64,000 bases of DNA from Geobacter sp. SVR (GTDB lineage: Bacteria > Desulfobacterota > Desulfuromonadia > Geobacterales > Pseudopelobacteraceae), in assembly GCF_016865365.1 (NCBI RefSeq), contig NZ_AP024469.1:1-64000 (forward strand), given 5' to 3'. This document shows, one piece after another, positions 45,847 to 55,240 of the stretch; position 1 is the first letter of the stretch, and each line of letters opens with the position of its first letter. The notes below the pieces were generated by a model, which was given only the letters and a program-made list of their open reading frames with translations, searched no databases and was not told the DNA's origin. A program made the translations under genes and the position numbers.

Positions 45847-45937
45847 GGAGAGATGTCCGAGCGGTTGAAGGAGCACGCCTGGAAAGCGTGTGTACGTTAA
45901 TAGCGTACCGAGGGTTCGAATCCCTCTCTCTCCGCCA
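45847..45937 (+). tRNA. tRNA-Ser (anticodon GGA)
   Basis: Acceptor stem GGAGAGA pairs with TCTCTCC (45927-45933), discriminator G, and an encoded CCA at 45935-45937. The anticodon stem CACGC/GCGTG encloses a loop with GGA at 45881-45883. The variable arm is long, as in all tRNA-Ser, and the T arm has GAGGG-TTCGAAT-CCCTC. The 91-base length is normal for class II. It reads UCC and UCU codons. Confidence 0.97.
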
Positions 45938-46020: not shown

Positions 46021-46130
46021 ATATGATAGCCGGGTCCCGCGCAACTGCAGGCCGTGAACCCCGCCAGGTCCGGAAGGAAGCAACGGCAGCGGCCCCCGCT
46101 GTGTGCCGCGGGTAAACCCGGCTATCATAT
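46021..46130 (+). ncRNA. ffs: Signal recognition particle RNA (4.5S-like)
   Basis: A long terminal stem (ATGATAGCCGGGT near 46023 with ACCCGGCTATCAT ending at 46128) closes the molecule. The conserved apical sequence GGTCCGGAAGGAAGCAACGG at about 46068-46087 contains the GGAA tetraloop and the adjacent symmetrical loop, the Ffh-binding site. Position between tRNA-Ser and dnaX fits many bacteria. Mature ends are estimated to within about 6 bases. Confidence 0.95.
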
Positions 46131-53867: not shown

Positions 53868-54525
53868 CTTGGCCGATGATGCATTGCTCGATATTTTTGA
53901 TCTGCTGGCCCGATACTACGGGCCGCTGGGTTGGTGGCCGGCTGAAACCCCTTTCGAAGTGTGCGTCGGTGCCATTCTGACGCAGAATACCGCCTGGACC
54001 AACGTGGAAAAGGCCATTGCCGCACTCAAGGGAGCGGATGCGTTGAGTGCGGCGGGGCTGCGCGAGATCGCTCCGGACGAGCTGGCGCTGCTGATCCGTC
54101 CGGCCGGGTTTTTCAACGTCAAGAGCCGGCGTGTGAAGAGTTTCGTCGATTGGCTCTTTGGCAGGTACGGAGGTTCGCTGGAGCGGATGTTCTGTAGCGA
54201 CTGGCGCCTGCTGCGGGAGGAGCTGCTGGCCGTGGCCGGCATCGGCCCGGAGACCTGCGACGCAATCCTGCTGTATGCCGGCGGCAAGCCGACCTTTGTG
54301 GTGGATGCCTACACGCAGCGACTGTTCCATCGTCTGGGAATGCTTCAGCTGGGAAGCGACTATGATGCAACCCGCCGGTTGTTCATGGACAACCTCCCCG
54401 CCGAGCCTGTCCTGTTCAACGAGTATCACGCCCTGATCGTCGAACAGTGCAAACGGTTCTGCCGGAAAAAGCCGCGCTGCGCCGGTTGCCCGCTTGCGGG
54501 ACGGTGCTGCTGTCGAATAAGTTGA
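53860..54525 (+). CDS. Endonuclease III-related DNA glycosylase (MagIII-like)
   Basis: The 221 residues belong to the HhH-GPD superfamily. The N-terminal segment TPFEVCVGAILTQNTAWTNVEKAI and the late VEQCKRFCRKKPRCAGC lead to an iron-sulfur loop with cysteines at C-x5-C-x2-C-x5-C. The helix-hairpin-helix reads VAGIGPETCDAIL, where E. coli Nth has the catalytic Lys; here Glu stands in its place, while the catalytic Asp is kept in VVDAYTQR. That pattern indicates a monofunctional glycosylase of the H. pylori MagIII type (3-methyladenine), not an AP lyase. It starts inside the end of the epimerase gene. Confidence 0.88.
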   Translation: MNDLADDALLDIFDLLARYYGPLGWWPAETPFEVCVGAILTQNTAWTNVEKAIAALKGADALSAAGLREIAPDELALLIRPAGFFNVKSRRVKSFVDWLFGRYGGSLERMFCSDWRLLREELLAVAGIGPETCDAILLYAGGKPTFVVDAYTQRLFHRLGMLQLGSDYDATRRLFMDNLPAEPVLFNEYHALIVEQCKRFCRKKPRCAGCPLAGRCCCRIS

Positions 54526-54587
54526 CTTGCTGGATAAAGATTTGTAATTTTTTCGACATATAATTAAATAGTTATAAAATAGTTGAC

Positions 54588-54616
54588 TTGCCAGAATGAC
54601 AACTGTTTGGTATAGT
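54588..54616 (+). promoter_or_regulatory. Promoter for the candidate small RNA
   Basis: TTGCCA (54588-54593), a 17-base spacer and TATAGT (54611-54616). It directly follows an AT-rich tract. An 11-base direct repeat AGTTGACTTGC occurs at 54520-54530 and 54581-54591, the second copy overlapping the -35 region. Confidence 0.5.
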
Positions 54617-54622
54617 AAAGCC

Positions 54623-54701
54623 AGAAAAGGATTGCGGGGGTCATCACGATGACCCTCATCTGCCCTGGTAACTTTCCCTCCTAGTTGCCAGGGTGTTTTT
54701 T
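54623..54701 (+). ncRNA. Candidate small RNA with C-rich terminator loop
   Basis: From the promoter above, a short transcript would contain hairpin 1, GGGTCAT/ATGACCC (54638-54644 with 54649-54655, loop CACG), and hairpin 2, CCCTGGTAAC with GTTGCCAGGG (54663-54672 with 54684-54693, one G-U pair), followed by a T-rich run (54694-54701). The 11-base loop of hairpin 2 reads TTTCCCTCCTA, which could pair with purine-rich Shine-Dalgarno sequences. It is either a free small RNA of about 80 bases or a leader attenuator before folK; the sequence does not decide. Confidence 0.5.
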
Positions 54702-54715
54702 ATTGTGCAGTGCGG

Positions 54716-54745
54716 TTGACGCCACCCTGCCGGTTGTGCTTTAAT
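54716..54745 (+). promoter_or_regulatory. Candidate promoter for folK
   Basis: TTGACG (54716-54721), an 18-base spacer and TTTAAT (54740-54745). Transcription would begin at about 54752, exactly at the probable GTG start of folK. Confidence 0.4.
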
Positions 54746-54751
54746 CTCACA

Positions 54752-55240
54752 GTGGAAACTGAAGCCTACATCGGCATCGGCTCGAACCTTGGGGACAGGG
54801 AGCTGAATCTGCTGCGGGGAGTGGCCGAGATCGGCAAGCTTCCTCTCAGCAGGGTAACCGGATTATCCCCCTTTTACGAGACCTCGCCAGTGGGCGTTAC
54901 CGATCAACCCGCCTTCTACAATGCAGTCCTGTCCCTTGCCACCGCACTTACTCCACCTGAACTGCTGAGCGGACTACAACGGATCGAGAACGAGGTTTTC
55001 AACCGCACGCGGGAACACCGCTGGGGACCGCGGAATATCGATCTGGACCTGCTGCTGTACGGCAGCGAGGTGATTGACAGCGAGGAACTGACCATCCCCC
55101 ATCCGCGCATGGCGGAGCGGCGTTTCGTGCTTCAGCCCCTGTGCGTGCTGGCGCCCGGCCTGATACATCCGGTGCTGGGGCGAAGTATGGTCGAACTGCT
55201 CGCCATGCTCAGCTCTGTGGAAACTGTGGTGGAAATCTGA
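54752..55240 (+). CDS. folK: 2-amino-4-hydroxy-6-hydroxymethyldihydropteridine pyrophosphokinase
   Basis: FolK (HPPK) activates the pterin with ATP for dihydropteroate synthesis in folate biosynthesis. From the GTG at 54752 it has 162 residues, typical for the family. AYIGIGSNLGDRELNLLRGV starts the domain, and WGPRNIDLDLLLYG holds the metal-binding aspartates. The GTG start has no ribosome-binding site, and the expected transcription start falls on it, so the mRNA may be leaderless. It is followed by the small YHS gene. The metF-metH pair further downstream also uses folate. Confidence 0.93.
   Translation: METEAYIGIGSNLGDRELNLLRGVAEIGKLPLSRVTGLSPFYETSPVGVTDQPAFYNAVLSLATALTPPELLSGLQRIENEVFNRTREHRWGPRNIDLDLLLYGSEVIDSEELTIPHPRMAERRFVLQPLCVLAPGLIHPVLGRSMVELLAMLSSVETVVEI

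Follow-up and report, generated by a model that had tools for sequence, protein, structure and literature searches.

The segment from 54588 to 54701 on the plus strand of the window (the whole stretch of DNA analysed, i.e. the first 64,000 nucleotides of the Geobacter sp. SVR contig NZ_AP024469.1) probably harbours a free-standing gene for a trans-acting sRNA of ~80 nt, whose loop putatively pairs with Shine-Dalgarno sequences. We estimate the probability of this reading at about two in three. The parts of this proposal differ in strength. The existence of an independent sRNA gene is well supported by sequence comparisons, and the anti-Shine-Dalgarno function of the loop is likely, while we infer expression, pairing, a target set and the use of Hfq. 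The RNA belongs to an already catalogued family, RF01733, which is of unknown function and annotated as cis-regulatory. What comparative analyses add here is evidence that the sRNA gene is independent and near-universal and that its loop does not vary, together with a wider set of look-alikes.

The predicted gene has a sigma-70-type promoter (54588-54616), at the place where an earlier note on this DNA had proposed a near-consensus promoter. The -35 box TTGCCA (54588-54593) and the -10 box TATAGT (54611-54616, preceded by TG) are separated by 17 bases and match the consensus at 10 of 12 positions. Two promoter-like sites were seen in the scanned stretch, against 0.4 expected. The RF01733 match and the fold delineate a predicted transcript of about 79 nt (54623-54701), with its start deduced from the position of the -10 box. 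A conserved UUGCG lies just 5' of hairpin 1, which has 9 bp and a CACG loop (54636-54657; arms 54636-54644 and 54649-54657). Hairpin 2 is the 12-bp terminator stem (54662-54694; arms 54662-54673 and 54683-54694), followed by a single G and the T-run of the intrinsic terminator (54696-54701). Thus, all the sequence elements of the ~80-base transcript with two stable hairpins and a T-run that had been postulated were found. The segment 54622-54704 folds with -34.6 kcal/mol (z -4.75), and 0 of 200 shuffled sequences were equally stable.

The terminator stem carries a 9-nt loop, UUCCCUCCU (54674-54682), which ends with the invariant anti-Shine-Dalgarno motif CCCUCCU (54676-54682). The C-rich loop noticed earlier is thus present, but it had been given as TTTCCCTCCTA, which counts in the closing U-A pair. 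A simple terminator scan did not list this terminator because it limits loops to 8 bases. The 11-base repeat AGTTGACTTGC does occur twice, at 54520-54530 and 54581-54591. However, its suggested role as an additional binding site did not hold up: among 111 related loci the pair is confined to this genome, which speaks against a conserved binding site there.

Compensatory changes are seen in both stems. In 49 diverse copies of the terminator stem, 96.2% of the cells are paired, and 54 double-sided changes were counted, compared with a mean of 17.5 for shuffles and 13 for the best slid control; both-sided changes affect 6 of the 12 pairs. The corresponding values for hairpin 1 (40 copies) are 96.8% and 58 double changes, compared with 18.8 and 19, with both-sided changes at 6 of the 7 tested pairs. 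A lack of compensatory changes among relatives had been named beforehand as grounds for abandoning the proposal. Since the two stems have such changes, and more of them than the shuffled and slid controls, those grounds do not apply. At least 9 of 12 promoter matches are present in 82 of the 111 homologous loci, compared with ~3% of random windows. The conserved promoter, the compensatory changes, the terminator and the varying neighbourhoods described below all favour the small RNA that the earlier note had suspected. An own promoter and an own terminator, as expected for an sRNA with an anti-Shine-Dalgarno loop, are thus both present on sequence evidence, and the unpaired CCUCC motif of such an sRNA is conserved in 111 of 111 elements.

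Within the RNA, conservation is highest in the C-rich loop, as would fit a putative seed. The CCCTCCT columns are invariant in the 49-copy alignment, and the motif is identical in all 111 elements examined, on stems that change. Part of this invariance is due to ascertainment, because the model used to collect the homologues gives credit for the loop sequence itself. We identified twelve relatives that lack the RNA, nine of them with a folK match. Upstream of folK in those nine, we found neither an RNA remnant nor a hairpin with a changed loop. The RNA is cleanly absent there, not decayed, and the ascertainment objection is therefore weakened, albeit not abolished.

The Rfam model RF01733 ('atoC RNA') matches positions 54609-54700 over its full length (model positions 1-93) with 68.7 bits in cmscan. 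This exceeds its gathering score of 50 bits, and the match includes both hairpins and the loop. No covariance-model match to other Rfam families, 6C included, was obtained for this segment at E up to 1. The RF01733 consensus opens with GgUAuAcUauA, which corresponds to the -10 box of the promoter; thus, the promoter travels with the RNA. The source genome has a single copy above the cutoff. In the order, 126 of 141 genomes have the RNA, nearly always as a single copy. At an E-value threshold of 0.01, 204 of the 277 genomes of the class have it, almost always once, and 133 of these are above the Rfam cutoff, which overlooks many members elsewhere in the class. A phylum-wide sample yielded class members and two marginal matches only. 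The exact loop stretch occurs in genomes of Oryzomonas, Geobacter and Desulfuromonadaceae. Outside the order, hairpin 1 often carries a GGACGC loop while its stem varies; this loop might be a GGA site of the CsrA type or might itself take part in pairing as a second loop.

The RNA is found in at least three unrelated gene neighbourhoods. In the family of the source genome, it is located between an endonuclease-III-type or epimerase gene and folK. In other families of the order, one flank holds a divergent transglutaminase-like gene, or instead an M16 peptidase gene or a small gene. The other flank holds either cysS or a gene that encodes Fe-hydrogenase and sigma-54-activator domains and from which the name atoC probably derives. 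Beyond the order, the RNA adjoins a convergent gene for an Rrf2-type regulator. The same-strand orientation of the preceding gene in the source genome's family would be compatible with an ordinary terminator of that gene next to a chance promoter. However, a divergent gene precedes the RNA at many other loci of the order, and both hairpin 1 and the promoter are conserved. In addition, CCTCC is not enriched among the terminator loops of the source genome (3 seen versus 2.6 expected, in a count that allowed loops longer than 13 bases). Together, these observations make this explanation extremely improbable. The same count rules out, for the source genome, that all terminators have CCUCC loops.

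Weinberg et al. (2010) listed atoC in their Table 1 as probably an RNA and probably cis-regulatory, in delta-Proteobacteria (PMC2864571). A leader or attenuator acting on whichever gene follows, which is folK in this genome and the sigma-54 activator 'atoC' in others, would agree with the location of the RNA directly upstream of a co-directional gene in many cases, with 32 loci for the Fe-hydrogenase/sigma-54 activator and 28 for folK. Yet the downstream gene varies by clade, and at 33 of 104 loci the nearest one has the opposite orientation (e.g. an Rrf2-type gene in 16). Furthermore, a separate conserved promoter past the terminator precedes folK as well as the atoC-type gene, and folK is kept in RNA-less relatives, in 8 of 9 cases with its promoter. 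A cis-regulatory leader is thus very unlikely. Acting in cis on the downstream gene belongs to the family's annotation, though not to its definition, and does not fit these unrelated or opposite-strand neighbours with promoters of their own, which rather favour an independent sRNA gene.

In the window, the separate folK promoter (54716-54745, plus strand; TTGACG and TTTAAT, 18-base spacer) lies 3' of the sRNA terminator and outside the sRNA, as does folK itself (HPPK; 54752-55240, plus strand; Pfam PF01288, E 4.1e-38). Promoters of this kind (TTGAC-type, N17/18, TTTAAT) follow the RNA terminator in 34 loci listed. In most loci, the folK start codon is ~6-9 nt past the -10 box, and the mRNA is therefore probably leaderless. 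Here, folK is probably an independent transcription unit, with a leaderless mRNA predicted from the GTG codon at 54752. The earlier alternative of an attenuator of folK is contradicted by this promoter 3' of the terminator and by the many genera whose RNA has no folK beside it. Similarly, a conserved GTGTGCCA-N4-TTGCACA-N16-TATANT is present between the RNA and the start of the atoC-type gene, and this promoter speaks against a leader of that gene in other clades. Its GTGTGCCA-N4-TTGCACA part, a conserved imperfect palindrome that some loci have twice, coincides with the -35 region of the activator gene and is likely an operator. Altogether, the varied or opposite-strand neighbours and the downstream genes' own promoters argue that the RNA is a separate transcription unit.

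The loop motif CCCUCCU is the complement of the Shine-Dalgarno core AGGAGGG. Strong seed sites (-12 kcal/mol or better) were present at 14% of translation starts versus 4% of gene interiors. However, 40 decoy seeds, with the CCUCC core kept and the flanks shuffled, yielded 45-134 strong sites, compared with 58 for the real seed. As the decoys match or exceed the real seed, the preference for translation starts reflects a generic Shine-Dalgarno signal only. A ranking of targets by duplex energy over 1.26 Mb of the source genome performed no better than decoys and singled out no specific target. A pattern search of that genome for near-perfect complements returned few, mostly off gene starts, with no convincing regulon. 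Long complementarity is rare: only one of the seven near-matches inspected, at 1704625, directly precedes the start codon of a long gene, which by eye is secreted-protease-like. Thus, the search for loop complements near start codons suggested earlier gave no excess over decoys with the same core, and of the proposed anti-Shine-Dalgarno seed, the complementarity and its conservation stand but no target rises above the decoys.

The same data bear on the idea that a protein or another RNA docks at the conserved loop, which would then not be a Shine-Dalgarno seed, and that the RNA acts as a decoy or a scaffold. This would account for the invariance of the loop across the whole class and for an extended mRNA complementarity no better than that of decoys, and the GGACGC loop conserved outside the order is a possible CsrA-type site. 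In contrast, CCUCC complements the Shine-Dalgarno core exactly, and it is just this CCUCC that paralogues retain while their stems and flanks differ. We regard docking as rather unlikely.

Under our preferred reading, a housekeeping-type promoter of its own would drive the gene for the trans-acting sRNA, and a terminator of its own would end the transcript. Hairpin 1 would serve as a conserved scaffold, and the terminator hairpin would display the invariant CCCUCCU loop for pairing with AGGAGGG-type Shine-Dalgarno sequences. This pairing would block ribosomes and repress the translation of a set of mRNAs. Hfq, the gene for which is encoded in the genome, might take part. The RF01733 motif, whose function is unknown, has been regarded as probably cis-regulatory since 2010, and in Geobacterales it now appears to be an independent, near-universal, single-copy sRNA gene. 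For experimenters, this implies seeking targets in trans rather than focusing on folK or atoC. The invariant anti-Shine-Dalgarno loop would permit a direct functional test in electroactive laboratory species, for which we found no work on the RF01733 RNA in the literature. Our literature searches likewise provided nothing usable on a Geobacter atoC RNA or a Geobacter sRNA map.

Loop-based sRNAs of comparable type are proven elsewhere, namely NfeR1, RepG and B11. NfeR1 (alpha-r14 or 'cuckoo' sRNA) has three hairpins, an 'ultraconserved' CCUCCUCCC and variable stems, and its silencing of an mRNA at the translation start has been demonstrated (PMC10746234). It shares with the RNA described here an ultraconserved anti-Shine-Dalgarno motif in a loop on variable stems. 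However, the repetition of CCUCCUCCC in several hairpin loops that characterizes the alpha-r14 RNAs is replaced here by one loop with CCCUCCU, the bacterial class differs, and there is no evidence for common descent. RepG of Helicobacter pylori, also a short sRNA, uses its C/U-rich terminator loop to pair with a G-repeat in the tlpB leader (PMC8295292); here, the equivalent loop is a putative pairing site. The 6C/B11 sRNA of mycobacteria has C-rich loops for which pairing with G-rich stretches of 5' untranslated regions has been proposed (PMC10470900). The C-rich loop and the proposed pairing with G-rich mRNA sites are similar, but 6C/B11 has two such loops, and the sole Rfam match of the segment here is RF01733.

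We built a model, R1, which found many copies in genomes without a match to the Rfam model. One genome had 15 matches, and the copies were mostly outside long ORFs. Most of the copies inspected have TTGAC-type promoters, and all have CCUCC loops in terminator hairpins of other sequence; none of these paralogues is above the Rfam cutoff in the loci scanned. In three such genomes, a hairpin pattern with CCTCC in its loop matched 33, 25 and 14 times, versus once each for the reversed pattern; these are raw numbers that include double counting from variable gaps. In related genomes (family f6, genus g37), some paralogues carry a second ACCUCCUAA stretch.

Directly after ftsZ, at about 636628-636720 of the source genome, there is a second two-hairpin element, composed of a hairpin and a terminator with the loop CUUUCCCCCUCC. 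Several genera of the family retain it, whereas others have lost, altered or replaced it. This element may be another anti-Shine-Dalgarno RNA, one that originated from the 3' end of ftsZ. It is conceivable, though doubtful, that the ancient single-copy RNA, the ftsZ 3'-end member and the paralogue sets represent a class-wide system of sRNAs with anti-Shine-Dalgarno terminator loops. If so, these sRNAs would compete with ribosomes for Shine-Dalgarno sequences and in this way tune how many mRNAs are translated, a control layer of which we found no description in the literature on these metal-reducing bacteria.

Other structured RNAs were observed in the course of these analyses. A c-di-GMP-I-GGC riboswitch (RF03167, 65.4 bits) is present on the minus strand near one paralogue locus (positions 313-404 of L118). 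Finally, a Small SRP RNA (RF00169) is located at window positions 46028-46126 on the plus strand, with a tRNA gene just upstream (45847-45934, plus strand).
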